Below, piece after piece: positions 6,124-55,200 of a stretch of 64,000 nt of DNA. The stretch is from Pandoraea anhela (lineage in GTDB: Bacteria; Pseudomonadota; Gammaproteobacteria; Burkholderiales; Burkholderiaceae): NCBI RefSeq assembly GCF_902459655.1, contig NZ_CABPSB010000011.1:62001-126000 (forward strand), in the 5' to 3' direction. Positions within the stretch are counted from its first letter, which is position 1. The number at the start of each line of letters is the position of its first letter. Made by a program: the position numbers and the translations under genes. The notes beneath the pieces were generated by a model that was not told the origin of the DNA, made no database searches, and was given only the letters and a program-made list of their open reading frames with translations.

Positions 6124-6151
6124 GCGCAGAGCGCGTCGCCGTTGCTATTGA

Positions 6152-6179: not shown

Positions 6180-6217
6180 GTCGTCGTTTGAGGTCCTTTG
6201 ATTTGGCAGGAAGCGTC

Positions 6218-8301: not shown

Positions 8302-8361
8302 CGTGGCGGGGTGACGGCCGGGAAACGAGTTCGCCACCCCGGAGACCGCCACCCCGCCACG
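8302..8361. repeat. Inverted repeat between lyase and MBL genes
   Basis: CGTGGCGGGGTG (8302-8313) and CACCCCGCCACG (8350-8361) are perfect 12-bp inverted arms around a 36-base centre. They lie 20-80 bases beyond the stop of the minus-strand lyase gene. It could end that transcript, but there is no T-run and the loop is long. Confidence 0.4.
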
Positions 8362-8380
8362 ACTCAAGCAAGCGGTGGTG

Positions 8381-9487
8381 TCACCGAGCGGCCGCTTGAG
8401 CGCCGGCAGGACTGCTACCCGGCGCGATGCCGCGTTGCGCCATCATCGTCAGATTGCCGCCCATCCAGGTATCGATGTACGGGCCGCCGTTGTGCATGGC
8501 ATCGAATGCTGCCGGATTCGTCGAGTGCTGCCGATAGAACTCCACCCATCCGCTGAACGTCGTCGGGGTCTTGTCCGTTTGCGGCGTTCCGGCGGCTGCG
8601 TCGAACCAACTGGAGTCGCGGTATCCGCTTGCGATGAGTTGCGTCAGACTCTCGAGCGAGCCCACATGATACGAGTACCAGTCGTAGCCCCACTCGTGCG
8701 CCATCTCAGCCATGAGCACCAGCGGCGCGGCGGCGAACGACGTGTAGTGCAGCGCCAGCCGGCCGCGCCTCAACTCGAACGGCAGCGAGCCATTCGACTG
8801 AATGTCGTCGATCCCCTCGCGGTAGATCGCTTGCGCCGCTGCCAGCAGATTGGCGTCGTTCGTCGCCAATGCCGTCGCCATCACGCCAACCCCAGTCCAA
8901 TAAAAGTGGTTGTTGCGTTCGTTGTTCGGGTCTTGCCAGTACTGAAGCGTGTCGGCCGACAGCGTCTTGAGCCATCCCTCGATACGCTGGCGCTGGTCGG
9001 CGGTCGCGAGAGGGCGGGTCTTGAGATAGGCGATGGCGGCCGTGCCGTGTGTCCACTGCCGCATGAAGTCCGCCTGATGGTTGTTGATGTGCACCATCTT
9101 GCCGAGCATGGCGCCGTTCGATGCCCAATTGTCCAGCCACGACAGAATGCTATTGGCGTCCGCAGTATCTGCGGGATTGTTCAGATAGTGGTCAGACATT
9201 CTTGCCAGACAGTCCGTAAAAGTCGTGAGCGGCGCAATGTCTTCCTTGTTCTCTTCATACAGCACCGGGTCGATGATCGACTGCTGCGGATCGGTGTAGT
9301 ACCCCACCGCCGTCACGTCCGGGTTGGCCGGCGGTATTGCCGCGCAGGTGGTGTCGTCGGCGAATGCGGGAGCGCTGGCGGTCGTCGCCGCAAGCGTGAT
9401 ACACGCGATGGTCATGGTCGTTTTTCCACGACTGGCGAGCGATTGGATCAGTTTGTCGATCTTCGGAGAAAGTGGCGAGTTGTTCAT
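8381..9487 (-). CDS. PL5-type alginate lyase (paralogue 1)
   Basis: A 368-residue exported protein with a signal peptide ending near APAFA-DD. The fold is the alpha/alpha barrel of PL5 alginate lyases. NNH is at 192-194, with Arg241 and Tyr248. The His-to-Arg (+47) and His-to-Tyr (+54) distances equal those of the A1-III catalytic set (His192, Arg239, Tyr246), so it is predicted to be catalytically intact and to cleave mannuronate-rich alginate or a related polyuronate by beta-elimination. The ATG at 9487 was chosen because the signal peptide begins there; the frame runs on upstream but that extension overlaps the ACT gene and is not lyase-like. It is a paralogue of 10098-11174. Confidence 0.9.
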   Translation of the reverse strand: MNNSPLSPKIDKLIQSLASRGKTTMTIACITLAATTASAPAFADDTTCAAIPPANPDVTAVGYYTDPQQSIIDPVLYEENKEDIAPLTTFTDCLARMSDHYLNNPADTADANSILSWLDNWASNGAMLGKMVHINNHQADFMRQWTHGTAAIAYLKTRPLATADQRQRIEGWLKTLSADTLQYWQDPNNERNNHFYWTGVGVMATALATNDANLLAAAQAIYREGIDDIQSNGSLPFELRRGRLALHYTSFAAAPLVLMAEMAHEWGYDWYSYHVGSLESLTQLIASGYRDSSWFDAAAGTPQTDKTPTTFSGWVEFYRQHSTNPAAFDAMHNGGPYIDTWMGGNLTMMAQRGIAPGSSPAGAQAAAR

Positions 9488-9570
9488 GTTGGTTTTTTCG
9501 ATGCAACGAGAAGTCAGAGGTTGAGTCAGACGTTGAAAGGTGAAATTCGTCAAAGGAAGCGATCTCTCGA

Positions 9571-9987
9571 TCAGGCCTCGCTGCCGCGCACGGCTTGTGA
9601 CTGGATGGCTTGCAGCACGCGCATCGCTTGCGGGCCCTGATCCACGGGAACGAAAATATGATCGTGGTAGACACCCGCGATAACGTTGCAACTGACGCCT
9701 GCCGCCGCTAGGGCGTGCGCAAACGTCGCCGTCAGACCGACGGCCTCGAGGTCGGAATTCACCGTCAGCGTGATCCAGGCGCACAGGAAGACGATCTCCA
9801 GAGACGCGTTGCGGGCACTGGCCGCATCAATCACGAGCGTCGTGCCTTCGCGCTCCCGAAAGGTCGCCAACGGCGTGAGGTGCGCGAAATCAAAGGCGTG
9901 CGGCACCACAACGTAGGCATACTCGCCGTCGTTGAGTTCGGGTTCGAGAGATTTGAGAATGTCGTTCAGGTCGGAAACAGGCGTCAT
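9571..9987 (-). CDS. ACT-domain protein (DUF2241 type)
   Basis: A 138-residue soluble protein with tandem ACT-like folds: DGEYAYVVVP, then FREREGTTLVIDAASA, then ITLTVNSDLEAVGLTATFAHALAAAGVSCNVIAGVYHDHIFVP. The closing segment is typical of the ACT_3/ACT_7 (DUF2241) family, small proteins presumed to bind amino acids or other ligands. The ATG at 9987 has GGGA about 13 bases upstream; an in-frame ATG at 10002 lacks a ribosome site. It sits between two alginate lyase paralogues on the same strand (83 bp to the next lyase, 110 bp from the previous one). Its role there is not obvious. Confidence 0.8.
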   Translation of the reverse strand: MTPVSDLNDILKSLEPELNDGEYAYVVVPHAFDFAHLTPLATFREREGTTLVIDAASARNASLEIVFLCAWITLTVNSDLEAVGLTATFAHALAAAGVSCNVIAGVYHDHIFVPVDQGPQAMRVLQAIQSQAVRGSEA

Positions 9988-10097
9988 GTCGGTCAATCCC
10001 ATCGATAGAGTGAGTTGGCAAGCGTTGACCGCCCCATGTCGTACCGGGGTCGGCGCCCCAGCCTGAGCCAGGGTATCGGGGCACCGGAGCGGGTATC

Positions 10098-11174
10098 TCA
10101 GCGCGCGGGGACGATGCCGTCCTTTGCCATGAGCGTCAGATTGCCCCCCATTCGCGGATCGATAAACGGCCCGGCCCGATGCATCGCTTCGAATAGTGCC
10201 GGATGCGGGGAGCGCAGTCGATAGAACTCCACCCATCCGCTCGATCCGTGCGGTTCGGCTTTCTCCTGTTTCGCACCGGCTTGCTCGTTGAACCAGGACG
10301 GATTCTCGTAGCCGGCGGCTACGCGGGCCGCCAGGCGCTCGATGGCCCAATCCCGGTACGAGTACCAGTCGCTACCGTCAAGACGAGCGAGTTCCGCCAT
10401 CAGGACCAGCGGCGCCGTCGCATAGTCGTGGTAATGCAGCGCCCGTCGCTTGCGCGCCATCTCCATCGGCAGGCTGCCGTCCGGCTGAATATCGTCGATG
10501 CCCTTGCGATAGATGCTGCGTGCCGTGTCGAGCAGCGTCCGGTCGTGCGTGGCGACGGCGGTCGCCATGATGCCGACGCCCGTCCAGTAATAGTGGTTGT
10601 TTCGCTTATGCCTGGGATCGTCCCAGTACGCGAGATTCGCCGCCGACAACTTCTTCAGCCAGGATTCGATGGCATGGCGCTGACTCTCGCTGGCGAACGA
10701 TTTGGTCTTCAGGTAAGCCAGCGCGGCGGCGCCATGCGTCCACTGGCGCATGTAGTCGGACTGATCGTTGTTCACGTGAACCATCTGGCCGAGCATGGCA
10801 TCGCTGCGCGCCCAGTCGTCGAGCCACGACAATGCACAGTCGGCCGATGCTCTGTTGTGGTCGCGGATGAGCGCATCCGTCATGTCCGCCAGCTTCGTGG
10901 CAAAAGTATCGAGCGGTTTGACGGCCGCTTCGTTCTGCGCCTTTAGTTGGGGATCGATCTTGGAGTGTGCGGCATCCGTGTAATAGCCGTTGGCCCGAAT
11001 GTCCGGCGTGCCCGGCGGCGGTGCGGGACAGTCGAGCGTGCTGGCGAATGATGTGGCGCTTAGCGCCATTGCGCAGGAGAACACTGCGAGCGCGGCGGCG
11101 CGCGGCGTGCGTGGCGCCGACTGACGGGGCGGGCGCTGAAGACGCGAAAGCAATGGGGTGATACGGGTCAGCAT
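10098..11174 (-). CDS. PL5-type alginate lyase (paralogue 2)
   Basis: A 358-residue exported protein, about half identical by eye to the product of 8381-9487. A long positively charged n-region precedes a hydrophobic segment and a likely cleavage near ATSFA-ST. NNHYYW covers 192-197, with His194, Arg241 and Tyr248 at the A1-III catalytic spacing. It is predicted to be an active alginate/polyuronate lyase. The ATG at 11174 is preceded by GGAG about 10 bases upstream and begins the signal peptide; a frame extension to 11243 is not needed. It leads a minus-strand group lyase - ACT - lyase. Confidence 0.9.
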   Translation of the reverse strand: MLTRITPLLSRLQRPPRQSAPRTPRAAALAVFSCAMALSATSFASTLDCPAPPPGTPDIRANGYYTDAAHSKIDPQLKAQNEAAVKPLDTFATKLADMTDALIRDHNRASADCALSWLDDWARSDAMLGQMVHVNNDQSDYMRQWTHGAAALAYLKTKSFASESQRHAIESWLKKLSAANLAYWDDPRHKRNNHYYWTGVGIMATAVATHDRTLLDTARSIYRKGIDDIQPDGSLPMEMARKRRALHYHDYATAPLVLMAELARLDGSDWYSYRDWAIERLAARVAAGYENPSWFNEQAGAKQEKAEPHGSSGWVEFYRLRSPHPALFEAMHRAGPFIDPRMGGNLTLMAKDGIVPAR

Positions 11175-11477
11175 GAAATGGGCTCCGGCAAATGCCTGGA
11201 CGAAATACGAAGGACCATGCGCCATGGACGCAAGGTCGGGCATACGGTGTCAGGTGAGGCGATGAAATCACTAGGGTGGGGCAGCAACCTTGTTTCGGGC
11301 CCGCTTTTGCAGGTCTCATCGGGCAACTGCGATTCCAACGTCGGACTCTCCTTCAGTAAGGCACATCGCAGCGGGCGTTTCCCCGTGAAAAGCCCGGTTG
11401 CGCTGAGCCATGAACATCTATGCAACACGTGATCGGGATGCAATCGGCCAGGATCGACGAAGATTCCGGCGTGTCAC

Positions 11478-12470
11478 TCAATTTCTTCGCATCGTCGACG
11501 CTCGCAAAACCAGTTCCGGTTGAAGCATCGCAAACCCTTTGTCGGTGTGCCCGGCCAGACAGTCGAGCATCTTGAACATCGCGACTTCCCCCATGCGCTC
11601 GCTTTGCATGTCGACCGTTGTGAGCGCCGGATGCACATACTCGCCAAAGGGGATGTTATCCATGCCCACGACGGAAATATCCTTGGGAAGCTGGAATCCC
11701 AGCGCCTGCGCTTCCTTCATGAATCCGATGGCGATGAGGTCGTTGTAGCAAATGACGGCATCGGGGCGTTCGGCCACGAGCATGATGCGCGAGCAGGCGC
11801 GCTCGCCGCCATGCGCCGACGGCTGCTCCACGTCGAACACGGACAGCGATTTGCCATGGGAGGCGAGACAATCGTGAATGCCCCGGATGCGCTCGGCGTT
11901 CCAGCGCGCCCCCGGAAAACCGAGGAAAGCGATGCGCTTGTGCGCGAGCCCGACCAAATGCTGGGCGATGAGGTATGCGGCGCGATAGCCTTCTGCGCCG
12001 ACGCTCGGCACGCTCGTGTCGGGTAATTTGCCGAAACAGACCGACGGTTTTGGTGATTGCCGCATCCATTCCAGTGCGTCATCCGGCATTCGAGAACTGA
12101 CGATCAGGCCATCGACACGACGCGAGAGCATTTCGAGCAACTGTCGCTCGTTCTTCTGGCTCTCGCCGGTGGCGACGAACAGCAGCGAGTAATCGTGCTG
12201 AAGCGCGACCCGATTCGCGCCTTTGACGATGCCGGTGAAGTGGGGGTTGTGAATGTCGAGGATCGCCACGCCGATCGTCCTCGTTTTACCCGTCGCCACC
12301 GAGCGCGCGACCACATTCGGTCGGTAGCCCAGTCGATCGATGGTCTCCCGCAACCGGTTTTCCACTTCCGAGCTGAAGCGCTGCGTGCCGTTGACGAACT
12401 TCGACACAGTGCCAGGCGAAACATTGGCTTCGACAGCGACATCGCGAATGGTGGAAGGGTACTTTTTCAT
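11478..12470 (-). CDS. LacI-family transcription regulator
   Basis: A 330-residue repressor starting MKKYPSTIRDVAVEANVSPGTVSKFVNG, a LacI helix-turn-helix followed by the hinge helix (YRPNVVARSVATGKTR). A periplasmic-binding-protein-like effector domain covers residues ~60-330 (VAILDIHNPHFTGIVKGA, SVVGMDNIPFGEYVHPALTTV). The effector is probably a sugar or uronate. It diverges from a porin gene. Two identical palindromes GGAAAACGTTTTCC lie at 12478-12491 and 12760-12773, the form expected for a LacI-family operator. It therefore probably represses itself and the porin, and possibly nearby lyases, although no copy of the palindrome was found in front of the lyases. Confidence 0.93.
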   Translation of the reverse strand: MKKYPSTIRDVAVEANVSPGTVSKFVNGTQRFSSEVENRLRETIDRLGYRPNVVARSVATGKTRTIGVAILDIHNPHFTGIVKGANRVALQHDYSLLFVATGESQKNERQLLEMLSRRVDGLIVSSRMPDDALEWMRQSPKPSVCFGKLPDTSVPSVGAEGYRAAYLIAQHLVGLAHKRIAFLGFPGARWNAERIRGIHDCLASHGKSLSVFDVEQPSAHGGERACSRIMLVAERPDAVICYNDLIAIGFMKEAQALGFQLPKDISVVGMDNIPFGEYVHPALTTVDMQSERMGEVAMFKMLDCLAGHTDKGFAMLQPELVLRASTMRRN

Positions 12471-41615: not shown

Positions 41616-43310
<1,695 letters not shown>

Positions 43311-43598
43311 TTAGCCGAGCACCGCGACGATGTCGTCTTCGCGGAGCACCAGAAGCTCATGACTGTCCACTTTGACTGCCTGACCACTGTATTTGCCGAA
43401 CAGCACACGGTCGCCGACCTTGACGTCGAGTTCGATATGGCGACCGTCCTTGTCTCGCCGACCCGGGCCGACGGCGACGACCTCGCCCTGATCGGGCTTC
43501 TCTGCTGCGCTGCCGGGCAGCACGATCCCGGAGGCGGTTTGGGTTGCCTCATCGACACGTTTGACGATGACGCGATCCTGAAGGGGACGAAGGCTCAT
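43311..43598 (-). CDS. groES: Co-chaperonin GroES
   Basis: A 95-residue cap protein: [46 protein letters not shown], with the mobile loop (TASGIVLPG) that docks on GroEL. The ATG at 43598 is the family start; the in-frame extension to 43640 runs into CIRCE. It is followed after 54 bp by groEL. Confidence 0.96.
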
Positions 43599-43633
43599 GA
43601 CATTTCCTTGGGAGTCTGATTGCGGTCTCGATC

Positions 43634-43660
43634 CTGGCACTCTCCGTTATCGAGTGCCAG
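43634..43660. promoter_or_regulatory. CIRCE element (HrcA operator)
   Basis: CTGGCACTC, a 9-base spacer, then GAGTGCCAG form a perfect 9-bp inverted repeat. It matches the CIRCE consensus TTAGCACTC-N9-GAGTGCTAA at all but two bases per arm. It lies 36 bp upstream of the groES start, between the -10 (43676-43671) and the gene. Confidence 0.92.
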
Positions 43661-43876: not shown

Positions 43877-45556
43877 TCAGTATGTGGCCGAGCGATGCAC
43901 TTCGCGACCGCCTACCAGCGTCAGACTCGCTTGCAGTGTCAGCAGATCGGCGTCGGGAACCTCGAGCGGATTCGCGCTCAACACCGCCAGGTCCGCCCAT
44001 TTGCCGGGCGCGAGCGTGCCCTTGTATGCCTCTTCGAAGCTCAGGAAGGCACCGTTGCGCGTGACCGTTTCGATGGCCTGAAGGCGCGTGAGCCGCTGAT
44101 CCGGGCCGATGACTTTCCCGGTGGTGCGCTCGGCACGCACCACACTCGCCCAGACGGCGCTGAACGGGCTGACGGGAATGTTGTCGCTTCCCGACGCGAC
44201 ATCGATGCCGGCTTCCATCAACGTGCGCTGCGCGACGAACCGGTTGCCGTCGTGGGGTTCTTCGAGGCGAGACGCGCCGTTTTTCCAGAGCATGTAGAAC
44301 GGGATCGTCGTGACACGCAGGCCGAGGCGCCGGATGCGCGGCAGGTCGTTCGGGTCGAGCCGCCCCAGATGCTCCACCACCCAGCGGCGGCCGGCAATCG
44401 GGAACCGTCGGTCGATGGCTTCGAAGACATCCAGCACTTCGCTCAGGCGATCGATCACCACGCTATGCACGCGCAGATCGAACTCGGCTGCCAGCCACGC
44501 GTAATCGCGAAAATCCTCGATACGATTGGCCCACTCGACGAAGCCCGACCATCCGGTGTTGGGCAGTGCTTTGCGCACCGCGCGGGCGGTCGCGTTGGCG
44601 CCGCCGAGGCCGATGAATACCCCGGAGACGGCGAACCACGGATCACCGAGTCCGCTGCCTCGCGCAAACGACAGCCAGTCGCGCATGGCCAGGCGTGCCT
44701 CCACCGCGTTGTTCCATGTCGGACTGACGCAAAGACGGGTACGCATCGTCAGCTCGCCGGCCTCCCACAGCGCACGATAGACCGCGATGGTCTCGGGCGC
44801 GGAGCCATGGCCTTCATAGACGCTTGTCGTGCCGAACTGGTGATATCGCGGCAAGGAGCGGCGCAACCCTTCGATCCGGTCGTGATAGTCGAAGGGCGGA
44901 ACTTGCGTGAGTACGGCGAACTCGATGAGCGGACGCTTGTTGGTCTCCACGATGACGCCCGTCGGCTGGCCATCGGCGCCGAGCTCGATGTCGATGCCCT
45001 CACAGTCAGGGCAAGTGCCGGCGTGGATGCCGTTGCGCGTGAGCGCGAGCGAGTTGAGCGCACTGTGGCCGGGCGGGACGCCCCAGTTGCCGAAGAGTCC
45101 GGGAATATAGACCGGATGATCCGGCGCGACGGCATCCAGTTCGTGACGATCCGGCATGCGCTTTTCCGCCAGTGTCAGCGGGCCATCGAAATAGAACGGC
45201 GGCTGGCCGACCGGCATGGTGACAATCCATTCGCCCTTGGGCGTGCGCTCGACTTCCCGTCGAATGACGTCGAGCACGTCCGAGATCTGCCGCGCGTGCG
45301 CAAGCGACGGGCGCAGCGTCTTCAGGCCCTCCCGCTCCATGTGCGCATGCGCGTCGACGACGCCCGGGATGACCGAGCGCCCCGCAAGGTCGACCACCTT
45401 CGTGTTCGACGATTGCGATTGGGAGAGTACCTCGGCGTCGCGGCCGACGGCCAAAATGCGCTCGCCCGCGATGGCGATCGCCTGCGCAGGCGCCGCGCCG
45501 GGCTCCATCGTGAGAATGTGCCCGCCGTGCAGAATCAGATCGGCTTTGACGCTCAT
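43877..45556 (-). CDS. YtcJ-like metal-dependent amidohydrolase
   Basis: A 559-residue Amidohydro_3 protein: SVIPGVVDAHAHME has the HxH metal pair, later VHSVVIDRL and WVVEHLGRL carry further His residues, and ASGSDNIPVSPF contains the catalytic Asp. Family members hydrolyse N-acyl or N-formyl bonds and related amides; the substrate is unknown. The ATG overlaps the permease stop as ATGA (45556-45553), so it is translationally coupled to the SsuC-like permease. It is probably the last gene of the 53.6-43.9 kb operon. Confidence 0.9.
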   Translation of the reverse strand: MSVKADLILHGGHILTMEPGAAPAQAIAIAGERILAVGRDAEVLSQSQSSNTKVVDLAGRSVIPGVVDAHAHMEREGLKTLRPSLAHARQISDVLDVIRREVERTPKGEWIVTMPVGQPPFYFDGPLTLAEKRMPDRHELDAVAPDHPVYIPGLFGNWGVPPGHSALNSLALTRNGIHAGTCPDCEGIDIELGADGQPTGVIVETNKRPLIEFAVLTQVPPFDYHDRIEGLRRSLPRYHQFGTTSVYEGHGSAPETIAVYRALWEAGELTMRTRLCVSPTWNNAVEARLAMRDWLSFARGSGLGDPWFAVSGVFIGLGGANATARAVRKALPNTGWSGFVEWANRIEDFRDYAWLAAEFDLRVHSVVIDRLSEVLDVFEAIDRRFPIAGRRWVVEHLGRLDPNDLPRIRRLGLRVTTIPFYMLWKNGASRLEEPHDGNRFVAQRTLMEAGIDVASGSDNIPVSPFSAVWASVVRAERTTGKVIGPDQRLTRLQAIETVTRNGAFLSFEEAYKGTLAPGKWADLAVLSANPLEVPDADLLTLQASLTLVGGREVHRSATY

Positions 45557-46518
45557 CGCTTCGCCTCCGCGCCGTACCACGGAAACACGCGGTGCAACAG
45601 CCACGCAAAGAGCTGGTCGGCGACGAAGCCGAGCGCACCGAGATAGATGAGGCCGACGAACATGATGTCGACGCGAAAGACCAGATGCGCGAACGAAATG
45701 AGGTAGCCCAGCCCCTTTTCCGAACCGACCAGCTCGGCGGCCACGAGCACCACGAACGACACCGATGTCGCTTGCCGCAAGCCTGCGAAAACGAAAGGCA
45801 GCGCGGCGGGAAGTGCGACTTGAAGCGCGATGGCGGCGCGTCGCGCACCGAGCGATGCCGCCGAGCGCAGATAAGCGGGCGAAATGTCGCGCACACCGAA
45901 GAACGTGTTGATCCACACTGGGAAGAAGGCGCCCCAGGCGATCAGCATGACCTTGGACAGATCTCCCAGGCCGAACCATACGATCGCGAGCGGCACGATG
46001 GCGATGGAGGGAATGGCGCGCAGGGCATGCAGCACCGGATCACTCAGATGACGCAGCGCAGTGAAGTGTCCGGTCAGCACGCCGGCGATGACGCCCAGCG
46101 TCGAGCCGAGCAGAAAACCCGCGAGTGCGCGCTGAAGACTGGCGCCCACATGCGGCCATATCTCGCCGGTTCCCCACGTCATCTCGGCAAACACGCCAGC
46201 CACCCGCGATGGCGGCGGGAACATGTTCAGATTGATCCCCGGAATGAGGCGGGGAACGATTTCCCACACCGCCAGAAACAGCAGACATCCCAGCACGCCC
46301 AGCAGCCACTGCTTGCCGAGCGCACTCCATTGCCGGGTGCGCCGGGCCTGTCGTACGGCATCTTCGATGGCCTGGCGACGCGCGATGTCCTGTCGGTCGG
46401 ACGCGCGAGAGGGCAGCGCCGTCGTACTCCCGGACGGCGAGCGGGACGACGGCGGATTGGCCGGCGCGTCGGGGCTGTCGGATAAGAGGCGCAGGCCTCC
46501 TTGCGGACTCGTACTCAC
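45553..46518 (-). CDS. SsuC/TauC-type ABC transporter permease
   Basis: A 321-residue inner-membrane permease of the BPD_transp_1 nitrate/sulfonate/taurine branch: HALRAIPSIAIVPLAIVWFGLGDLSKVMLIAWGAFFPVWINTFFGVRDISPAYLRSAASLGA. A cytoplasmic N-terminal stretch of about 70 residues precedes TM1, longer than usual. The GTG at 46518 overlaps the ATPase stop as GTGA. It works with the ATPase and binding protein encoded immediately upstream. Confidence 0.92.
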   Translation of the reverse strand: MSTSPQGGLRLLSDSPDAPANPPSSRSPSGSTTALPSRASDRQDIARRQAIEDAVRQARRTRQWSALGKQWLLGVLGCLLFLAVWEIVPRLIPGINLNMFPPPSRVAGVFAEMTWGTGEIWPHVGASLQRALAGFLLGSTLGVIAGVLTGHFTALRHLSDPVLHALRAIPSIAIVPLAIVWFGLGDLSKVMLIAWGAFFPVWINTFFGVRDISPAYLRSAASLGARRAAIALQVALPAALPFVFAGLRQATSVSFVVLVAAELVGSEKGLGYLISFAHLVFRVDIMFVGLIYLGALGFVADQLFAWLLHRVFPWYGAEAKR

Positions 46519-47315
46519 GCCACACGCTCCGTGGTATTTAGCGTTTCGAAAACTTTGCTGATGCGCTCGTAGATCTGGCCGAAGGCGGGATCGCCGCGTT
46601 CGCGCGGGTAGGGCAGGGGCACATCCACGATGTCGTGGATGCGTCCCGGATGCGGGCTCATGACGACGACGCGCTGCGCGAGGAACACGGCTTCCTCGAT
46701 GTTGTGCGTGATAAAGAAGATCGAGAGCTTGAGTTCGCGCCATACGCGCAGTAACTCGTCCTGAAGCAGCGATCGAGTGAGCGCATCGATGGCCGCGAAC
46801 GGTTCATCCATGAGCAGAACCTGGGGCCGGGTCGCCAGCGCACGCGCGACGGCCACGCGCTGACGCATGCCGCCCGACAGCTCGAACGGATACCGGTCGC
46901 CCGCGTGCGCGAGGCCGACAAGCGCAAGCAAGTCGTCGGCTCGCCTGCGTCGCTCCGCGCGCGGGACCCCTTGCTGTTTCAGTCCGAACTCCACGTTTCG
47001 TCGCGTGGAGAGCCACGGGAACAGCGCGTATTCCTGAAAGATGACGCCACGCTCGGGCCCCGGCCCCTGCACCGGCGTGCCGTGCACCGACACCGTGCCG
47101 AGCGTCGGCTTGAGAAACCCGGCGATCAAATTAAGCAGCGTGGTCTTGCCGCATCCGCTGGGCCCGATCGCGCACACGAATTCGTGATCGCCGATCTCCA
47201 GATCGACGTCGGTAAGGGCCCAGTTCAGGTCGCCGGAGCGTGTGGTGTAGAGCTGCGACACGCCCTGTATCGAGACGGCGGGCGACGAGTGGACGATATG
47301 GGGCAGGGCGTTCAC
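46515..47315 (-). CDS. SsuB/TauB-type ABC transporter ATPase
   Basis: A 266-residue ATPase: Walker A GPSGCGKTT, Q-loop FQEYALFPWLSTRRNV, signature LSGGMRQR, Walker B VLLMDEPFAAID, H-loop THN. These features, including GCGKTT and EPFAAIDALTR, mark the nitrate/sulfonate/taurine family. The GTG at 47315 overlaps the binding-protein stop as GTGA (47315-47312). A long upstream in-frame extension lies inside the binding-protein gene and is spurious. Confidence 0.93.
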   Translation of the reverse strand: MNALPHIVHSSPAVSIQGVSQLYTTRSGDLNWALTDVDLEIGDHEFVCAIGPSGCGKTTLLNLIAGFLKPTLGTVSVHGTPVQGPGPERGVIFQEYALFPWLSTRRNVEFGLKQQGVPRAERRRRADDLLALVGLAHAGDRYPFELSGGMRQRVAVARALATRPQVLLMDEPFAAIDALTRSLLQDELLRVWRELKLSIFFITHNIEEAVFLAQRVVVMSPHPGRIHDIVDVPLPYPRERGDPAFGQIYERISKVFETLNTTERVA

Positions 47316-48316
47316 GAGAGGGTGACCCGATGCGGGGCGACCGCCTTGAGGGCGTCGGTGTAGACAAGCTTGCGGTACAGCGAGCGCAAGTCTTCCTTGG
47401 GACGTTGGGCCAGCCCTGCGTTGATCGCCCATTCGCCGTTGAGCACGAGATCGTCGAGCAGACGGTTGTCGAGGCGCACGCCGACTTGCATCGTGCCGAA
47501 GCCCGCCTGCGTTGCCGCCAGCGATGCCTTCGTACGTTCGGCCACGAGCGCGGCGGCGTCCTGTGGATGCTCGAGATAGAACTGCTCGGCGGTGAGCAGC
47601 GCGCGCACGGCGCCTTCCACGAGTTTCGGCTGTTGCCGCACGACCGCTTCGGGCGCTGTCAACACGTAATGGCTGACAAAGACCTTCTCGAGACCGGTGT
47701 CCGGCAGCAGGCGGACCAGTCCCGGGTAGTCCGCGACGGCTCTTTGCCCGGAATCGAACCCCCAGGCGAATGCATCCACGCCGTTTTTCCCGATGGCGGA
47801 GACGACATCGCCACCGCCCACGTTGACCAGCGTCACGTCTTTCAGGCTCAAGCCCCAGAGCGAGAGGTAGCGCGAGAGAAAATAATGGCCACTGGTTCCC
47901 AGCGGGGTGGCGATGCGCTTGCCTTTGAGTTGCGCCGGGGTATCGATGCCGCGGTCGGTGCGGGCGGCAACGACCATGCCGCTCGACAAGCGTGTGAATT
48001 CCGCCACGATCACCGTATTGACACCGTTCGCCCCTGCCAGCCCGATCACGCTGTCGGTGGTGGTGGCGAATTGGGCTTTTCCGGCCTGAACCGCGTCGAA
48101 CGCCAGCCGCCCGGAGGTGAAGGCGAGCGTCGTGGCCTCGATACCTTGCGCGCGCCAATAGTCTTTGCTCGACACCAGATACGGAACTGCCCAGCTGAAG
48201 CCCTGACTTTCGGCGACCACGATTTTCTGCGCCGCGCGGGCATCCGGTATCCGATGGACACCGATACCCAGCATGCTCAGCGCGCTCAACGTTTTCACAA
48301 ACCCCCGACGATCCAT
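47312..48316 (-). CDS. SsuA/NrtA-like ABC substrate-binding protein
   Basis: A 334-residue exported binding protein of the sulfonate/nitrate/taurine/pyrimidine-precursor family (NMT1/SsuA fold). Its start MDRRGFVKTLSALSMLGIGV contains a twin-arginine-like RRGFVKTL motif, so Tat export is possible. The ATG at 48316 is preceded by GAGGGG and is preferred over an ATG 18 bp upstream. The ligand could be a sulfonate, an aromatic or a thiamine-like compound; the monooxygenase encoded 122 bp upstream favours a sulfur compound. Confidence 0.9.
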   Translation of the reverse strand: MDRRGFVKTLSALSMLGIGVHRIPDARAAQKIVVAESQGFSWAVPYLVSSKDYWRAQGIEATTLAFTSGRLAFDAVQAGKAQFATTTDSVIGLAGANGVNTVIVAEFTRLSSGMVVAARTDRGIDTPAQLKGKRIATPLGTSGHYFLSRYLSLWGLSLKDVTLVNVGGGDVVSAIGKNGVDAFAWGFDSGQRAVADYPGLVRLLPDTGLEKVFVSHYVLTAPEAVVRQQPKLVEGAVRALLTAEQFYLEHPQDAAALVAERTKASLAATQAGFGTMQVGVRLDNRLLDDLVLNGEWAINAGLAQRPKEDLRSLYRKLVYTDALKAVAPHRVTLS

Positions 48317-48438
48317 ACCGCACCCCTCATTCATGTTCAGATTGCATTGACGTATGACTGGCCACCTATCGCGATCCTCGCGGGACCGCCTTCAACTATG
48401 GTTCACTACGGTTCACTATCGTTCGGTAACGGGCACGC

Positions 48439-49638
48439 CTAGGCGTACGGATCGGGTAGCGCGTCCGTCAGCATCCACTGGCCAAGGGCTTTCTGCCGAT
48501 AGTCCAGCGGATCGTGCAGCGTGTGCACGCGCACGTTGCGCCAGTACCGGTCGAACCCGTCGCGGCGCGTGGTCGCGCTCGCGCCCATCAGCTCGAAAAT
48601 GTCGGACGTGATGCGCAACGCGGTGCGCCCGGCATGAAGTCTTGCCGCCGCGATCTGCAAGGCCAGCTTGCCGCGCGCTTGTGCGCTCAGCTCGAGACCG
48701 AGATTCCAGGCGTGTTCAAACGCATGCAGTGCGTCGTCAGCGAGCAGGAGTGAGGCTTTCAGATCGGGCCACATGCCGCCGATTCGCAGTTGAATCAGTC
48801 CGTCGTCGCGCGCCTGTTCCACGCCGGCGACCGCCCAGGGGCGGGCGCTTTGCTTCACGTAGCCGATGGCGTCCCGGAGCGCGCCCAGCGCGTTGCCGAG
48901 ATAGATCTCGGTGAGAATCAGTTGACCGATGAGGTTGCGCAGCGTGGCGCGCGGGCTGCTTGCCACGCCGGGCGGGCCGAGCGATTCCGTGGCGTCTACG
49001 GCCACACGCGCGAACGAGATCGTGCCGCTGTCGGTCTGGCGTTGTCCGACGTTATCCCAGTCGTCATTGACGGTGACGCCATGCCGGGAGGCCGGAATCG
49101 CGAGGAAGCGCCGGTCGGCGGGCTCGCTACCCAATGTCACGGAGATCATGAGCATGTCGGCGCCTCGCGAACCAGAGCAGAAACTCTTGACACCGTTGAG
49201 TTCGAAACCCGTCGGCGTTCGCGTGACGCTCAGCCGCGTGTCGCGGGCATTGACGGCGTTGCCCCAGAACCACCGCCGGCTCACGGTGTTTTCCAGGTAG
49301 TACGATTGCTGTTCCGGCGAAGCGAACAGGCGTACGGAGGCCACCTGAAGATGCTGAAAGCCGAAGAGATGAGCAAGCGAACTGTCCTCTACGGCGAGGC
49401 GGCGAACGATTTGCAGAATGGTCGTCCACGCGGCGCCGAGTCCACCGAACTCATGGGGAATCGCCAAGGACAGCAAGCCGCTCTCGCGAAGCCGTTCGCG
49501 CTCGTGCCATGCCGTACCGCCTTCCCGGTCGCGTTGCGCCGCCGTTGCGCGCAGTACTTCGGCGACGCGTATCACCGCTGCCGCATGTTCCCCGAAATGG
49601 TGCGATGGCAACCATTCCTGCATAAAAAGCTCGTCCAT
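48439..49638 (-). CDS. DszC/SfnC-like acyl-CoA dehydrogenase-fold flavin monooxygenase
   Basis: A 399-residue protein with the acyl-CoA dehydrogenase fold (IPHEFGGLGAAWTTILQIVRRLA, FWGNAVNARDTRL, ELNGVKSFCSGSRGADMLMISV). The lack of the usual acyl-CoA dehydrogenase C-terminal motifs and the HxxRD-like ending (RYWRNVRVHTLHDPLDYRQKALG) match the DszC/SfnC group of two-component FMN-dependent monooxygenases that oxidise sulfur or nitrogen compounds. A flavin reductase would be needed and is not in the window. It lies between the aminotransferase and the SsuACB-like genes on the same strand. Confidence 0.85.
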   Translation of the reverse strand: MDELFMQEWLPSHHFGEHAAAVIRVAEVLRATAAQRDREGGTAWHERERLRESGLLSLAIPHEFGGLGAAWTTILQIVRRLAVEDSSLAHLFGFQHLQVASVRLFASPEQQSYYLENTVSRRWFWGNAVNARDTRLSVTRTPTGFELNGVKSFCSGSRGADMLMISVTLGSEPADRRFLAIPASRHGVTVNDDWDNVGQRQTDSGTISFARVAVDATESLGPPGVASSPRATLRNLIGQLILTEIYLGNALGALRDAIGYVKQSARPWAVAGVEQARDDGLIQLRIGGMWPDLKASLLLADDALHAFEHAWNLGLELSAQARGKLALQIAAARLHAGRTALRITSDIFELMGASATTRRDGFDRYWRNVRVHTLHDPLDYRQKALGQWMLTDALPDPYA

Positions 49639-49784
49639 ACGCCGACTACCCGCTGTTTCGTCTTCCGAGAGTGCTGCCAGACGGAGCAGGCATCCGGGCG
49701 ACTATAGGGATGGACGACCACGAATCCAACCAATATTGGCGAATATGCTTAGCAAGCCTTTCGCGGGATGGATATGTCGAGCGG

Positions 49785-51038
49785 TCACGTCGCAGCCAGC
49801 GGCGAGGTGACGATGCGTTCGAGTGCATCGACCGCGACGTCGATCTCACGGGGCTCTGTCACGATATGGGCGCTGAGGCGAAGCACGTCGCCGAGCCGGT
49901 CGCCGTGCGGGCTCAATGGCGAATAGCGGCGTCCTATCGATGCGACGTTGATGCCCTGCGTCCACAGACGATGCGCGATATCGCGGCAAAGGCGGTTGTC
50001 GAACACCACGCCGAGAAGGCCGGTGTCGGGGCGATCGATCCACGAGACGCCCGCAATGCGCTGGAGCCTTTCGTGGAGTTTCGCGCTCAAGGCGCAGGTA
50101 TGGGCGTGGATGGTGTCGATACCCGTGCGCTGTGCGACGCGCACGGCCGCGAGTGCCCCGAGGCGTAAGCCGGGGTTGTGCTCATACAGTTGAAACCGCC
50201 GCGCGCCGGCGTCGAGTTTCAGCGCCATGCCGTGGTCGTTCAGGCCCCGGTGGGCCGTTGGCTCGGCGCAACTGCCGAAAACGTCGATCAAGGCCGGCGT
50301 CTCGAATTGTGCGAGTGCCCGCATCGAGAGGCACAGTACGGCAATGCCACGCGGGCCGCGCAGCCACTTGCGCATCGGAAACACCAAAACGTCGGCGCCC
50401 AGCGCGTTCGCATCGACATGCACTTGTCCCACAGCCTGACTCGCATCCACGAATAGCCAGCCGCCCGCGTCGCGCACGGCCGTGGCCACGCCGGACAACG
50501 CATTCAGCGCTCCCGATGCGCAGCCGATCAGCGGCAGCGATACCACCGGAACGGCGTCGCGCTCGCGTCTATCGAGCGCTTCGCGCACAACGCAGCGCCA
50601 GGTCTCGCCGGGGGCGCGACGAAGAACCGTCAGGCTTGCGCGTGGGGTGGCGAGCACGCTGCACAGATTTCCTCCCCACTCGTGCTCGCCGACAAACACC
50701 TGCAGGCGCCGGGCGGGGTGCAGGGCGCTGAGGGCCAGCGCCCAGCCGCGGGAGGCGGATTCCGTCAGCGCTATCTGCTCGGGGTGCGCACCCAGCAATG
50801 CGCCCAGCGCCGCGGGCAACTCGTCGAGCTCGTTCGACAATTGCTCGACTGCGCGATGGGGGCCGTATCGCGCTTCCGCATCGAGGTATCGGCGCTGCGC
50901 ATCGAACACGCTCTGATCGGCCAGACTCGCCGACGCGTGATTGAGATGAATCGCCGCCGCCGACCCCGGCGCGGTCTGGCGGCGCTCGAACGGCTTCGCT
51001 GATCCGGCGCATATTTCGTTATCGTGTGGAGCGCGCAT
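49785..51038 (-). CDS. Class V aminotransferase/cysteine desulfurase-fold PLP enzyme
   Basis: A 417-residue PLP enzyme of the NifS/EgtE/Isd11-like class V fold: HLNHASASLADQSV is the usual N-terminal segment, GGWLFVDASQAVGQVHVDANALGADVLVFPMRKWLRGPRGIAVL contains the cofactor Asp and the Schiff-base lysine (PMRKWLRGP). No catalytic-loop Cys typical of NifS is obvious, so a lyase or aminotransferase such as EgtE-like C-S lyase is possible. It begins 4 bp after the RidA gene. Confidence 0.86.
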   Translation of the reverse strand: MRAPHDNEICAGSAKPFERRQTAPGSAAAIHLNHASASLADQSVFDAQRRYLDAEARYGPHRAVEQLSNELDELPAALGALLGAHPEQIALTESASRGWALALSALHPARRLQVFVGEHEWGGNLCSVLATPRASLTVLRRAPGETWRCVVREALDRRERDAVPVVSLPLIGCASGALNALSGVATAVRDAGGWLFVDASQAVGQVHVDANALGADVLVFPMRKWLRGPRGIAVLCLSMRALAQFETPALIDVFGSCAEPTAHRGLNDHGMALKLDAGARRFQLYEHNPGLRLGALAAVRVAQRTGIDTIHAHTCALSAKLHERLQRIAGVSWIDRPDTGLLGVVFDNRLCRDIAHRLWTQGINVASIGRRYSPLSPHGDRLGDVLRLSAHIVTEPREIDVAVDALERIVTSPLAAT

Positions 51039-51042
51039 GGGA

Positions 51043-51498
51043 TTACCGCTTGATGGAGACGATCATGTCGAGTTCGACGGGCGCCCGGCGTGGCAGCGAC
51101 GCCACGCCGATCGACGTGCGGCTGTGTCGTCCTCGATCCCCCAGCCGATCGACGAGGACTGCCGACGCCGCGTCGATCACGTCGGCGTGCGCATCAAAAT
51201 CGCTGGTACACGCGACGTATCCCGAAACGCGACAGATCTGCGCCACGTTGTCCAGTCCGCCCAGGGCGCGCTCGATGGCCGCCAGGCAGTTCAGCGCGCA
51301 GAGCCGGGCAGCACTTTTTGCCGCTTCCGGCGTGACATCGTCACCCACTCTGCCACGTACGGCGAGTGTGCCGTCTTTGCGTGGAAGTTGCCCGGAGACA
51401 AAAGCGAAGTCGCCCTGAACGATCACCGACGCATAGCAGCCCGTCGGCGTGTGGGGAGGCGGCAGTGAGGCAGACGAAAGCTGAAGTGGATCGGTCAT
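51043..51498 (-). CDS. RidA/YjgF/YER057c-family protein
   Basis: A 151-residue trimeric-type Rid protein: FAFVSGQLPRKDG near the N-terminus and RTSIGVASLPRRAPVELDMIVSI at the end. The RxxxGxxxLPxxxxVE motif with its Arg is typical. RidA proteins hydrolyse reactive enamine/imine intermediates released by PLP enzymes, which fits the neighbouring class V enzyme. The ATG overlaps the DapA-family stop as ATGA (51498-51495). Confidence 0.92.
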   Translation of the reverse strand: MTDPLQLSSASLPPPHTPTGCYASVIVQGDFAFVSGQLPRKDGTLAVRGRVGDDVTPEAAKSAARLCALNCLAAIERALGGLDNVAQICRVSGYVACTSDFDAHADVIDAASAVLVDRLGDRGRHSRTSIGVASLPRRAPVELDMIVSIKR

Positions 51499-52439
51499 AT
51501 CGCCTCCCGAAGGGCTTCGCGCAGGACTGGGGGCTGGAAATCGAGCGAGATCAGCGCCGACACGAGCTGCTCACGTTGGGCTTGCGACAGCGCCATCAGG
51601 GGCGGGCGAACGCGCAGCAGATTGTCGTCCTGGAACGCCCATGCCAGCGCGGCTTTGAGCGCCGGAATCATCGGGTGCTTTGCGAACGCTGCCCGAATGG
51701 CGTCGGCACGGGCCTGCATTTGCCCGGCCTCCGGGGAGCCCAGGCTTCGATAGAGCGCAACCAGTCCCTTGGGATTGACGTTGGCTGTAGCGCTGATGCA
51801 GCCTGCCGCCCCCGCTTCCATGAACTTCACGAGGTCGGACTCATTGCCGGGGAATACGGCGAAATCCTCCGACGCGAAGCTTGCCAGCAAGTCACGCGTT
51901 TGGGACGGGTCGCCGCCGGTGTCCTTGATTCCCCGAATGACGCCGGGGTACTGCCCGATCAGGCGAGCGATGAGCTCGTGCGAGAACCCGATGTTTGCAA
52001 CGCCGGGGATGTGATACAGATACACGGCAGGTTGCCCGCGCTTCACGCCGGCCAGCACTTCTGCGTAGAACGCGAAGAGTCCGTCGTCGCTCACCGTCTT
52101 GTAGTAGAAGGGCGGCAGCATGAGCACGCCCGCGCAACCCAGCGCCGTTGCAACGTTCGTCAGCGTGACGGCGTCGCTAAGCGAGCATGCGCCGGTGCCG
52201 GCAAGCACACGGGACATGGGAATGCCGGCATCGGCCATGGCATGGAGAAGGCCGATGCGCTCCTGTACGGAAAGCGAGTTCCCTTCGGAATTCGTGCCGA
52301 ACACCGCGAGACCGACATCGTTCTCGAGCAGCCAGCGGCACTGTCTGAGAAAACGGGGCGTGTCCGGTACCAATGTCTCGGTAAACGGGGTGATCACCGG
52401 GCAGAGTACGCCGGCAAGGGGACGATGGGCAGCGCTCAT
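51495..52439 (-). CDS. DapA/NanA-family class I aldolase
   Basis: A 314-residue TIM-barrel protein of the dihydrodipicolinate synthase/N-acetylneuraminate lyase superfamily: GTNSEGNSLSVQERIGLL (GTTGE-like), YLYHIPG with the catalytic Tyr, GVIRGIKDTGGD with the Schiff-base lysine. In this family it could be a retro-aldolase or dehydratase of a keto acid. It heads the group aldolase - RidA - class V enzyme, where a PLP reaction would give an enamine and then a keto acid (inference). Confidence 0.9.
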   Translation of the reverse strand: MSAAHRPLAGVLCPVITPFTETLVPDTPRFLRQCRWLLENDVGLAVFGTNSEGNSLSVQERIGLLHAMADAGIPMSRVLAGTGACSLSDAVTLTNVATALGCAGVLMLPPFYYKTVSDDGLFAFYAEVLAGVKRGQPAVYLYHIPGVANIGFSHELIARLIGQYPGVIRGIKDTGGDPSQTRDLLASFASEDFAVFPGNESDLVKFMEAGAAGCISATANVNPKGLVALYRSLGSPEAGQMQARADAIRAAFAKHPMIPALKAALAWAFQDDNLLRVRPPLMALSQAQREQLVSALISLDFQPPVLREALREAI

Positions 52440-52607
52440 ACTTCACCTGAATCCGTGTTGACGAGTGCTCAGTATGCGAGTGCGGGGGGACTTGCGGGTT
52501 GCGGGAATGCCGGCTGTCGATGAGCAATTCGCAACATCGTCGGCGGGATCTTGCGCGGGCGCGAGCCGCCTCGACCGTGCGTCAGGCGGCGCGGGCGGCG
52601 GAGAAAG

Positions 52608-53573
52608 TCAGGCGGCGGAGACAGTCGGGCGGGGCGCGACGGATTGCGCGGCGTTCGTGCGCAAAAGATACTCCCACAAGCGTTCTGCGCTGTCGCTCAG
52701 CGCTCCGGTGCGTCTCGCGATGGTGACGTCCATCGAAATATCGAGCTGTCTCGAACTTGCCGCGACCAGCCGACCGGCTTGCAGATCGGCCTCCACCATT
52801 CTTTTCGGCAGCCAGGCAACGCCGAGTCCCGCGAGCGCCATCGACCTCACACCGTCGGCCACGGAGTTCTCATGGCGACGCCTGAACATCGGCAGTCCTG
52901 TCGTGTTGACGAGATTGGCGTCCAGTGCCCAGGACAGTGAACAAGCCTCGTCGTATCCGAGCAGCGACACCGATGTCGTGGTGCCGACATCCAGGCTGTG
53001 CAACGGCATGCCACGGGCGTCCGGTGCGCTCACCGGAGTGAGACGCTCCGTGCCGAGGGTGAGCATCGTGTACGCGGTGCGGTCGAGCGATGCCTGCACT
53101 TTACCGAGCACGCCGCGCGCTTCGTCGCAGAGAAACACGAGGAAGTCGTCTTCGCCGGCGTCCAGCCCGGCGATGCAGGCGCCCAGATGGTCCGAGGTGA
53201 CTGAAAATCGGGTGTTCTGAAACGGCTCGCTGAGCAGCGGAAACCAGGAAGTGAAGAAGAGCCCCGACATGATGTGCGGCGCGGTGAAGCGAATCTGCTC
53301 GCGTCTGCCGGCGACTTCCGCATGGACCGCTTTGCGTACGCTCTCGAGCGCGGTGACGGCATCGGCCGAAATGGGCAACAAGCGCTGTCCGACCTCCGTC
53401 AGCTCGATGCCGTTTGCCGATCTGACCAACACCGGCGCACCCAGCCAGATTTCCAGCGCCTGAATACGTCGGCTCAGCCCGGACGTAGAGACATGGCATT
53501 GCTCGGCGGCACGGCCGAAATGCTTGAGTCTTGCGAGGACGAGAAAGTCCTTCAGGCACTGAATGTCCAACAC
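52608..53573 (-). CDS. LysR-family regulator
   Basis: A 321-residue LTTR: MLDIQCLKDFLVLARLKHFGRAAEQCHVSTSGLSRRIQALEIWLG is the DNA-binding part, followed by a periplasmic-binding-like effector domain. It is in the same direction as, and 168 bp upstream of, the DapA-family gene. It is also divergent from the DctA-type symporter, with 298 bp between them. It is a candidate regulator for both. Confidence 0.93.
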   Translation of the reverse strand: MLDIQCLKDFLVLARLKHFGRAAEQCHVSTSGLSRRIQALEIWLGAPVLVRSANGIELTEVGQRLLPISADAVTALESVRKAVHAEVAGRREQIRFTAPHIMSGLFFTSWFPLLSEPFQNTRFSVTSDHLGACIAGLDAGEDDFLVFLCDEARGVLGKVQASLDRTAYTMLTLGTERLTPVSAPDARGMPLHSLDVGTTTSVSLLGYDEACSLSWALDANLVNTTGLPMFRRRHENSVADGVRSMALAGLGVAWLPKRMVEADLQAGRLVAASSRQLDISMDVTIARRTGALSDSAERLWEYLLRTNAAQSVAPRPTVSAA

Positions 53574-53871
53574 GATTTTGCTCCGTATCCTGCTCCGTAT
53601 CGGGACCCCGATTCGTCTTCACGGACGACGCCCATTCTACTGCGTTATCCCGCCCGAGATCGGCGCGCGGGCGGACTGGCCAATGACAGTTTGGCAACGC
53701 CGGATTTTTTTCTCGCAACGCTTGCCGTACGGGCAATCGGAATAATTGCCTCGCAGGTTGCGGAACGCGATGCGCATCGAAATGCCGCGTCGCCTTGTGC
53801 CGCAGGCTGCCACGAGAAAAGACTTTGTCCGAACACTTGCAGCATGCGCTGCCGCCTTTCCGGGAGACACG
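53574..53871. promoter_or_regulatory. Divergent region between LysR and DctA-type genes
   Basis: This 298-bp region contains the inverted repeat GGCAAT-N7-ATTGCC (53732-53737 and 53745-53750), with a further TTGCC just upstream (53722). These are possible LysR sites. No clear sigma-70 hexamers were picked out. Confidence 0.35.
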
Positions 53872-55200
53872 ATGAAAACCTTATCTCAACCGCAGGACAG
53901 CCGCGAGGGGCGGCGCAGCCTCAGGATCGGGCTGGCGTGGCAAATCGTGATCGGTCTGTTCGTCGGCGTTGTCGTCGGACTTGGACTCAATCACGCCCCC
54001 GAGGTCAGGGACGCCGCGATTGCCGGCTTTTTGCAGCCCGCCGGCGACATTTTCGTCAAACTGGTGAAGATGGTCGTGGTACCCATCGTATTTACCAGCA
54101 TGGCGATCGGGGTGGCCGGCGTGGGCGACGGTAAATCGCTCGGTCGCATCGGCCTGAAGACCCTGGTGTATTTCGAGCTGATCACGACCCTCGCGATCGT
54201 CATCGGCCTGCTCGTCGGCAATCTGACGCAGCCCGGGGTGGGCATGGACATGGCAAGTCTGGGCCATGCCGATATGTCCGCGGTGGCGAACACCAGCAAG
54301 AGTCTGCACCAGCAGCATGGATTCATGTCGATCGTCGTGTCCGTTATCCCGGATAACATCTTCGCTTCGATGGCGCGCGGCGATCTGCTGCCGGTCATCG
54401 TCTTTTCGATTCTCTTCGGCATCGGTTTGCAATCGTTGCCCGACGGGGTGAGCGCTCCGGTGATCGCGGCGCTCCGGGGCATCGCCGAGGCCATGTTCAA
54501 GGTGACGAACCTCGTGATGCGCTACGCGCCGGTCGGTGTTTGTGCGCTGATCGCCGTGACGGTCGCGACATTCGGGTTTTCCTCTCTGCTGCCGCTCGTC
54601 AAACTCGTCGTCATCACGTACCTTGCGCTTCTGTTTTTCGGTATTGTCGTGCTGGGCCTGGTCGCGCGGGTTTTCGGGTTCAGTATCTTTCGACTGATGC
54701 GGGTGATCCGCGACGAACTCATCATCGCGTTCTCGACGTGCAGTTCGGCGTCGGTGATGCCTCAGATCATGAAGAAGGTCGAGGATCTGGGCGTGCCGAA
54801 GCGCGTCACGACGTTCGTGGTCCCGACCGGCTACAGCTTCAATCTCGATGGCGCGTCGATTTATCTCGGCATCGGCACGTTGTTCGTCGCGCAACTGTAT
54901 GGCATCCATCTGGGGTGGCAGGAGCAGATCTTGCTGACGCTGACGATGGCGATGACTTCCAAGGGCGCGGCGGGCGTGCCGGGATTCATGCTCGTCATTC
55001 TGCTCGTGACGCTCTCGAGCGCCGGATTGCCGATCGAGGGCCTGGCGTTCATTGCCGGCGTGGACCGGTTGATGGATATGGGGCGCACAACGTTGAACGT
55101 GCTGGGTAACGCGCTGGCGCCGCTGATCGTCTCGAAATGGGAAGGGGTCTATCGCGCGCCTGTGTCGGCGGGTGTCAGTGCACAGGCGCGGGACCGATGA
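53872..55200 (+). CDS. Dicarboxylate/amino acid:cation symporter, DctA/GltP family
   Basis: A 442-residue SDF-family (DAACS) membrane transporter. Conserved parts are the hairpin serine region FSTCSSASVMPQIMKKVEDLG (HP1), GYSFNLDGASIYLGIGTLFVAQ (TM7, N-x-DG motif) and SKGAAGVPG (HP2). It imports C4-dicarboxylates, glutamate or aspartate with H+ or Na+. The ATG at 53872 has CGGGAG 10 bases upstream; an in-frame extension to 53746 is not part of the family. It converges on the MFS gene with only 18 bp between stops. Confidence 0.94.
   Translation: MKTLSQPQDSREGRRSLRIGLAWQIVIGLFVGVVVGLGLNHAPEVRDAAIAGFLQPAGDIFVKLVKMVVVPIVFTSMAIGVAGVGDGKSLGRIGLKTLVYFELITTLAIVIGLLVGNLTQPGVGMDMASLGHADMSAVANTSKSLHQQHGFMSIVVSVIPDNIFASMARGDLLPVIVFSILFGIGLQSLPDGVSAPVIAALRGIAEAMFKVTNLVMRYAPVGVCALIAVTVATFGFSSLLPLVKLVVITYLALLFFGIVVLGLVARVFGFSIFRLMRVIRDELIIAFSTCSSASVMPQIMKKVEDLGVPKRVTTFVVPTGYSFNLDGASIYLGIGTLFVAQLYGIHLGWQEQILLTLTMAMTSKGAAGVPGFMLVILLVTLSSAGLPIEGLAFIAGVDRLMDMGRTTLNVLGNALAPLIVSKWEGVYRAPVSAGVSAQARDR

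Follow-up and report, generated by a model that had tools for sequence, protein, structure and literature searches.

We analyzed a 64,000-nt stretch of the Pandoraea anhela genome (the window) and found that a run of nine genes at 43877..53573, which an initial annotation had treated as one set, appears to be two independent catabolic modules lying side by side and parting at 49639-49784, not one pathway. Module A comprises genes for a LysR-type regulator, a DapA-type aldolase, a Rid-family protein and a class V pyridoxal phosphate (PLP) enzyme, together with a divergent symporter gene, and module B comprises genes for a flavin monooxygenase, an SsuABC-like importer and an amidohydrolase. Both modules are conserved but rare, and each is of a known general kind. 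The explanation that we favor, at a probability of roughly 0.5, is that module A is an elimination-deamination and aldolase module and module B an organosulfur-scavenging module, each working independently of the other. The genes are:

52608..53573, minus strand: LysR-type regulator (module A; PF03466 and PF00126)
51495..52439, minus strand: DapA-type Schiff-base aldolase (module A; PF00701, DHDPS)
51043..51498, minus strand: predicted Rid-family imine hydrolase (module A; PF14588 and PF01042, YjgF/L-PSP)
49785..51038, minus strand: class V EgtE-like PLP enzyme (module A; PF00266, Aminotran_5)
48439..49638, minus strand: MsuC/DszC-type flavin monooxygenase (module B; acyl-CoA dehydrogenase domains and nearest solved structures)
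47312..48334, minus strand: SsuA-like substrate-binding protein (module B; PF09084, NMT1)
46515..47315, minus strand: SsuB-like ATPase (module B; PF00005, ABC_tran), with a GTGA overlap on either side
45553..46518, minus strand: SsuC-like permease (module B; PF00528, BPD_transp_1)
43877..45556, minus strand: Amidohydro_3 enzyme (module B; PF07969, 221 bits)
53746..55200, plus strand: DAACS-type dicarboxylate symporter (module A, divergent from LysR; PF00375, 388.7 bits)

The evidence for two units comes from relatives. We mapped the nine proteins, the symporter and GroEL onto 32 loci, the window locus being L031. Pandoraea captiosa (L014) has the symporter, LysR, DapA, Rid and PLP genes at 59-70% identity, the symporter at 70% and in the same divergent position, and is without all five module B genes. 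Burkholderia sp. Bp8963 (L012) has the LysR, DapA, Rid and PLP genes at 55-63% identity, and the symporter was not found at this locus in the mapping. Conversely, genomes G014, G015, G022 and G026 (L029, L028, L027 and L030) carry the five module B genes in order at 76-90% identity without module A; weak SsuB matches at further loci are ordinary ABC ATPases. Only the window locus has both modules. Each half keeps its order in other species, so that gene order is beyond chance within each half, but it is not kept across all nine genes, and the single nine-gene set breaks up: each half is found alone, and the nine together only in this genome. Because the halves stand alone in relatives, the monooxygenase and SsuABC-like importer offer little guidance on what the Rid, PLP and aldolase proteins act upon, and recognizing two units guards against wrongly inferring a 'sulfur plus Rid' pathway out of adjacency alone.

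Genome searches gave the same picture (all counts of the PLP, amidohydrolase and SsuA-like proteins take in the P. anhela genome itself). Both modules together were present in 1 of 32 Pandoraea genomes, that of P. anhela, a co-occurrence within chance (P = 0.29). The PLP protein was found at E ≤ 1e-20 in three of the 32 (P. anhela, P. captiosa and G019, whose match of 25% identity was left out of the module A count), the amidohydrolase in five, and the SsuA-like protein in six, one of them a 30% match only. More widely, the PLP protein occurred in 3/349 genomes of the family, 2/399 of the order and, at a looser E ≤ 1e-35, 8/398 of the phylum; the amidohydrolase occurred in 6/349 family and 13/399 order genomes (twelve of the 13 at 40-43% identity). 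P. anhela was the only genome carrying both proteins in the family and order searches. From the seven phylum matches besides P. anhela we took five; the two others share their genus with one of these five. We also examined 5 of 11 and 3 of 47 plasmid records with a PLP relative.

The layout of the window had been described correctly: all nine open reading frames (ORFs) lie on the minus strand at the coordinates claimed, the family assignments hold at superfamily level in domain-profile matches, and each of the four overlaps measures exactly 4 bp (ATGA for DapA/Rid and SsuC/amidohydrolase, GTGA for SsuA/SsuB and SsuB/SsuC). The other junctions are gaps of 168 bp (LysR-DapA), 4 bp (Rid-PLP), 146 bp (PLP-monooxygenase) and 104 bp (monooxygenase-SsuA), and they therefore give no sign here of a single transcript for the nine genes. 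The symporter gene lies outside the coordinates first annotated; its ORF is listed from 53746, and translation probably begins at the ATG at 53872.

For module A, we propose that the symporter would import an amino acid whose C-beta bears a leaving group, most likely a compound of the beta-hydroxy or amino-sugar-acid type. The PLP enzyme, judging from its family and residues, would eliminate the beta group and release an enamine/imine, which the Rid protein, with its conserved arginine and the published activity of Rid proteins, would hydrolyze to a 2-keto-3-deoxy acid and ammonia. The Schiff-base aldolase would then split this acid into pyruvate and an aldehyde, as its residues and the sugar-acid neighborhoods of its relatives suggest. 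The enamine-to-keto-acid route suggested initially fits this half of the cluster.

The best curated NCBIfam match of the PLP enzyme is EgtE (TIGR04343), the hercynylcysteine sulfoxide lyase, a C-S lyase, with a score of 84.7 bits where the cut-off is 400; SufS gives 83.1 bits against 475.1. Neither cut-off is passed, and transaminase models score far below both. A search of solved structures with the single sequence also ranked EgtE first. Four residues (Asp198, Arg223, Lys224 and Arg387) are invariant (10/10), and the Arg223-Lys224 pair corresponds to Arg202-Lys203 of MsEgtE at the cofactor lysine (PMC10805701). EgtE is thus the nearest curated family, yet the score is far under its cut-off, and the cluster in the window has no egtD. 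We looked for the catalytic cysteine of desulfurases; residues 365-390, which align with the HHC loop of 5b7s, contain no cysteine. A structure prediction from four sequences had a mean predicted local distance difference test score of 56.6, too poor for a fold search. LysR relatives of 45-68% identity stand beside the PLP gene at L012, L014, L050 and L051.

The Rid protein carries the catalytic arginine (Arg127, equivalent to RidA Arg105), which is invariant together with Glu142 in 7/7 relatives. It is 47% identical to the Rid protein of L051, on a Pseudomonas aeruginosa plasmid, which we take to be PA0814 from its gene order. At that locus (7510-12016), LysR, Rid, class V PLP, BKACE and MFS genes stand in a row, a variant of the PLP-Rid pair. 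A Rid relative was matched at 10 of 18 PLP loci (tblastn, E ≤ 1e-4), a threshold that overlooks remoter Rid types: L071 has an annotated Rid gene that went unmatched. One of the loci, L069, is a contig of just 4.5 kb. The arginine is required for imine hydrolysis by Rid proteins (PMC4433059) and is common to the module A protein and PA0814, a Rid1 protein that acts as a 2-aminoacrylate deaminase and can substitute for RidA in a ridA mutant (PMC5619798). Rid genes are described near PLP-enzyme genes, including some annotated as cysteine desulfurase (PMC5619798, PMC4433059), and PMC4433059 gives the in vivo substrates of Rid1-Rid3 proteins as wholly undescribed as of 2015. The Rid family (PF01042) is matched 21 times in the P. 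anhela genome (G000); for some Bradyrhizobia, as many as 16 Rid proteins are reported (PMC5619798).

The aldolase scores 121.9 bits against the model for DapA proper (TIGR00674), under the cut-off of 206.15. Its Lys172 and Tyr142, invariant in 10/10 relatives and aligned with solved DHDPS, are presumably the Schiff-base lysine and the catalytic tyrosine. The protein belongs to the DHDPS/NAL class I superfamily and is not DapA proper. Among its plasmid relatives (42-55% identical), we examined 8 of 14 records, one of them unannotated, and a sugar-acid-type dehydratase (IlvD/Edd, altronate dehydratase, dihydroxy-acid dehydratase or enolase superfamily) lies near in five of the seven annotated loci (L050, L073, L074, L075 and L076). 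Of the remaining two, L072 carries genes for RraA and an aldo/keto reductase, and L071 a Rid gene with a 2-hydroxyacid dehydrogenase nearby. The sugar-acid-cluster aldolases, whose own specificity is itself inferred, have the same catalytic lysine and tyrosine as the module A enzyme but a dehydratase as partner where module A has a PLP enzyme and Rid. In those loci the dehydratase would supply the 2-keto-3-deoxy acid, a place that the PLP enzyme and Rid may hold in module A.

Module A thus appears to follow the logic of two glucosaminate routes, ong and dga, with other enzyme families. In the ong route for N-acetylglucosaminate in Pseudoalteromonas prydzensis, a PLP enzyme converts a 2-amino-3-hydroxy acid by deamination into a 2-keto-3-deoxy acid, growth depends on ongD, a Rid gene of the cluster, and the cluster, like module A, has its own regulator and transporter (PMC9537276). 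It differs in that OngC is of fold type III and the module A enzyme of class V, fold type I, in its use of the kinase KdgK, for which module A has an aldolase gene instead, and in its deacetylase OngB and SSS transporter (PMC9537276); in module A, domain profiles found neither a kinase nor a D-aminoacylase. In the dga route for D-glucosaminate in Salmonella, PLP-dependent elimination-deamination is followed by an aldolase giving pyruvate and an aldehyde, as proposed here, but on the 6-phosphate formed by phosphotransferase system uptake, and the available part of the paper mentions Rid in general terms, not as a pathway gene (PMC9529869). A more specific version, which we put forward only tentatively, is that module A encodes a route, so far undescribed and free of phosphorylated intermediates, for amino-sugar acids or similar beta-hydroxy amino acids, with a class V dehydratase-deaminase of EgtE-like descent, Rid as a pathway enzyme and not a means of damage control, and a DapA-type aldolase yielding pyruvate and an aldehyde, and with the PLP-Rid pair as a reusable cassette. 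If so, the cassette would elsewhere be paired with a BKACE, SDR or RraA-like enzyme, and one Rid substrate class would become directly testable through a compact Rid, class V PLP and aldolase module that brings its own regulator and transporter. A literature search found no published description of either module, which does not contradict the initial remark that the set matches no described pathway, but the search took in little of the subscription literature, so absence is not proven.

For module B, the contexts of its relatives suggest that the SsuABC-like importer would take up an organosulfur compound, the MsuC/DszC-type monooxygenase would oxygenate it with reduced flavin mononucleotide (FMNH2) from a reductase encoded elsewhere, and the amidohydrolase would cut the product, feeding sulfur assimilation. 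Its function is thus probably the recovery of sulfur from organic compounds; the idea of a sulfur-containing substrate suits this half, where relatives adjoin sulfur genes, and has little bearing on module A. In a search of solved structures the nearest match of the monooxygenase is MsuC, a methanesulfinate monooxygenase, followed by DszC; its scores against the DszC (NF043015, 315.9 against 850) and SfnB (TIGR04022, 250.5 against 430.9) models are both below cut-off. His90, His372 and His375, invariant in 5/5, align with histidines in DszC and may correspond to DszC-type active-site histidines; His372 lies opposite Gln in MsuC. The amidohydrolase retains His70, His72, His396 and Asp458 in 6/6 relatives. 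The SsuA-like protein begins with a twin-arginine-like stretch, MDRRGF (48317-48280), so export by the twin-arginine (Tat) route is possible.

In Variovorax VAI-C, the five module B genes (60-77% identical) lie inside an island that includes further ABC importers, an aryl-sulfate sulfotransferase, msuE, a flavin oxidoreductase and a gene best matched by SfnB (under cut-off). An OAH/OAS sulfhydrylase gene (above cut-off) precedes the importer-amidohydrolase part in Azospirillum, and in G015 a Sulf_transp gene lies upstream of module B. The P. anhela genome encodes SsuE and SsuD elsewhere, both above cut-off, and thus has a means of providing FMNH2. MsuC, SsuD and SsuABC take part in sulfur assimilation (PMC13352529), and MsuC/DszC systems with SsuABC and MsuE share with module B an acyl-CoA-dehydrogenase-type flavin monooxygenase, an SsuABC-type importer and a separate flavin reductase; module B differs in the Amidohydro_3 gene fixed behind the importer, an amidohydrolase being unmentioned in the main text of that paper. 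At L034 (11882-13863) and L048 (4188-6169), the place that the monooxygenase holds in Pandoraea and Variovorax, beside the SsuABC-amidohydrolase genes, is taken by genes for a flavoprotein resembling fumarate reductase and for a small protein of the ferredoxin type.

Several observations weigh against this two-part reading. For module B, the importer is under the cut-offs of all best-matching family models: the SsuA-like protein scores 94.5 bits against 163.5 for TIGR01728 (SsuA_fam), the best SsuB-type model 266 against 357 and the best permease model 142.7 against 295. A flavoprotein/ferredoxin pair replaces the monooxygenase in Azospirillum and Cupriavidus CH34. For module A, EgtE is the best NCBIfam match not only of the PLP enzyme but of seven of the nine relatives scanned (one other being best matched by SufS), and a solved-structure search with a profile of ten relatives ranked cysteine desulfurases first. 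At L069 (68-2286; contig C391 of the Burkholderiales genome G676), a relative of the PLP gene, 37% identical, overlaps an egtD above cut-off, and one branch of the PLP enzymes is therefore probably a sulfoxide lyase. The L069 gene scores only 69 bits against the EgtE model and is possibly an EgtE form in a Burkholderiales genome. In a tree of 13 sequences, the L069 enzyme groups with those of the DapA-linked locus L050 and the Rid-linked locus L051. The DapA link falls on two separate branches of this tree, and the substrate may differ between branches. Rid was unmatched at 8/18 PLP loci, the DapA-linked L050 included, and the last enzyme varies, being BKACE in P. aeruginosa, an SDR in Phyllobacterium, and an SDR with an RraA-like enzyme in Rhodoferax; together these make a single substrate class uncertain. 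Flanking the Burkholderia module, at 698-6420 and 10164-11942 of L012, are a gene for a fused hydantoinase A/B, a DUF979 gene and an ORF that matches a carboxypeptidase only below threshold; a lactam or N-acyl amino acid as substrate would fit these neighbors too.

The EgtE matches and the L069 overlap would suit a C-S lyase route, in which the EgtE-like enzyme cleaves a cysteine S-conjugate or sulfoxide, Rid removes the 2-aminoacrylate formed and a side product is the substrate of the aldolase. The known action of Rid1 proteins on 2-aminoacrylate (PMC5619798) and the clustering of Rid genes with PLP-enzyme genes of the desulfurase and C-S-lyase type (PMC4433059) point the same way, but the PLP enzyme is far under the EgtE cut-off, a pyruvate product requires no aldolase, and no sulfur gene was seen (partly by eye) at L012, L013 or L014, the window having none but those of module B; we consider this route unlikely. 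We likewise find it improbable that module B serves a non-sulfur purpose, such as importing and hydrolyzing an N-substituted amide to obtain nitrogen, with the monooxygenase a later addition. The importer-amidohydrolase core without the monooxygenase in Cupriavidus and Azospirillum, the importer scores under the sulfonate cut-offs and the ability of the NMT1/SsuA fold to bind non-sulfur ligands too would all accord with it, and the sulfur genes adjoining the copies in Variovorax, Azospirillum and G015 argue against it.

Quite unlikely, in our judgment, is that the PLP enzyme is a transaminase type acting on an acidic amino acid such as 4-hydroxyglutamate, the aldolase a 4-hydroxy-2-oxoglutarate aldolase giving pyruvate and glyoxylate, and Rid a means of damage control. 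Class V includes transaminases, the adjoining symporter is of the dicarboxylate family, a fused hydantoinase/oxoprolinase gene stands beside the Burkholderia module, aldolase relatives are annotated 'glyoxylate catabolic process', and human HOGA is among the aldolase's structural matches; against this, the transaminase scores fall far under those of EgtE and SufS, and transamination yields no free enamine, so that a dedicated Rid gene is less expected. A single pathway of all nine genes (import of a sulfur compound, its S-oxygenation by the monooxygenase, EgtE-like cleavage and imine hydrolysis by Rid) would be chemically coherent in its succession of monooxygenase and lyase and has adjacent, co-directional genes here, but we rejected it as the main explanation and hold it very improbable, as the halves separate in relatives, co-occur no more than chance predicts, and module B retains its own upstream block.

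That block and a second one in module A were delimited by conservation across small sets of genomes, and both are footprints that we treat as candidate promoters:

49701..49734, minus strand: promoter-like block before module B, within AATATTGGTT...CTATAGT (sequence conservation)
52469..52535, minus strand: LysR-DapA intergenic block, GTTGCG...CGCAAC (52535-52498) and CATACTGA (52476-52469) (partial conservation)

A scan for sigma-70 consensus sites returned no promoter-like sites against a mean of 1.6 in shuffled sequences, and a terminator scan returned six against a mean of 7.5, so the scan is uninformative. The nine genes have a GC content of 0.63-0.67 and a third-position GC content (GC3) of 0.72-0.81, near those of groEL (0.63 and 0.77), so composition marks neither half as foreign. 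After module B, groES-groEL (named by eye; 41616-43640) continues in the same direction. Module B adjoins groEL in G026 as in the window, which suggests that these two are the older neighbors. The module B sequence AATATTGGTT, followed downstream by CTATAGT, precedes the monooxygenase gene in all five Pandoraea genomes with module B, four of which are without module A. The exact pattern occurs once in the P. anhela genome, as module B's own copy; we rejected it as a sulfur-regulon motif, since this single match has no link to other sulfur genes, a further point against the sulfur assignment. The LysR-DapA block, which ends in CATACTG, is partly common to three genomes (the window, L014 and L012) and is possibly an operator with a promoter.

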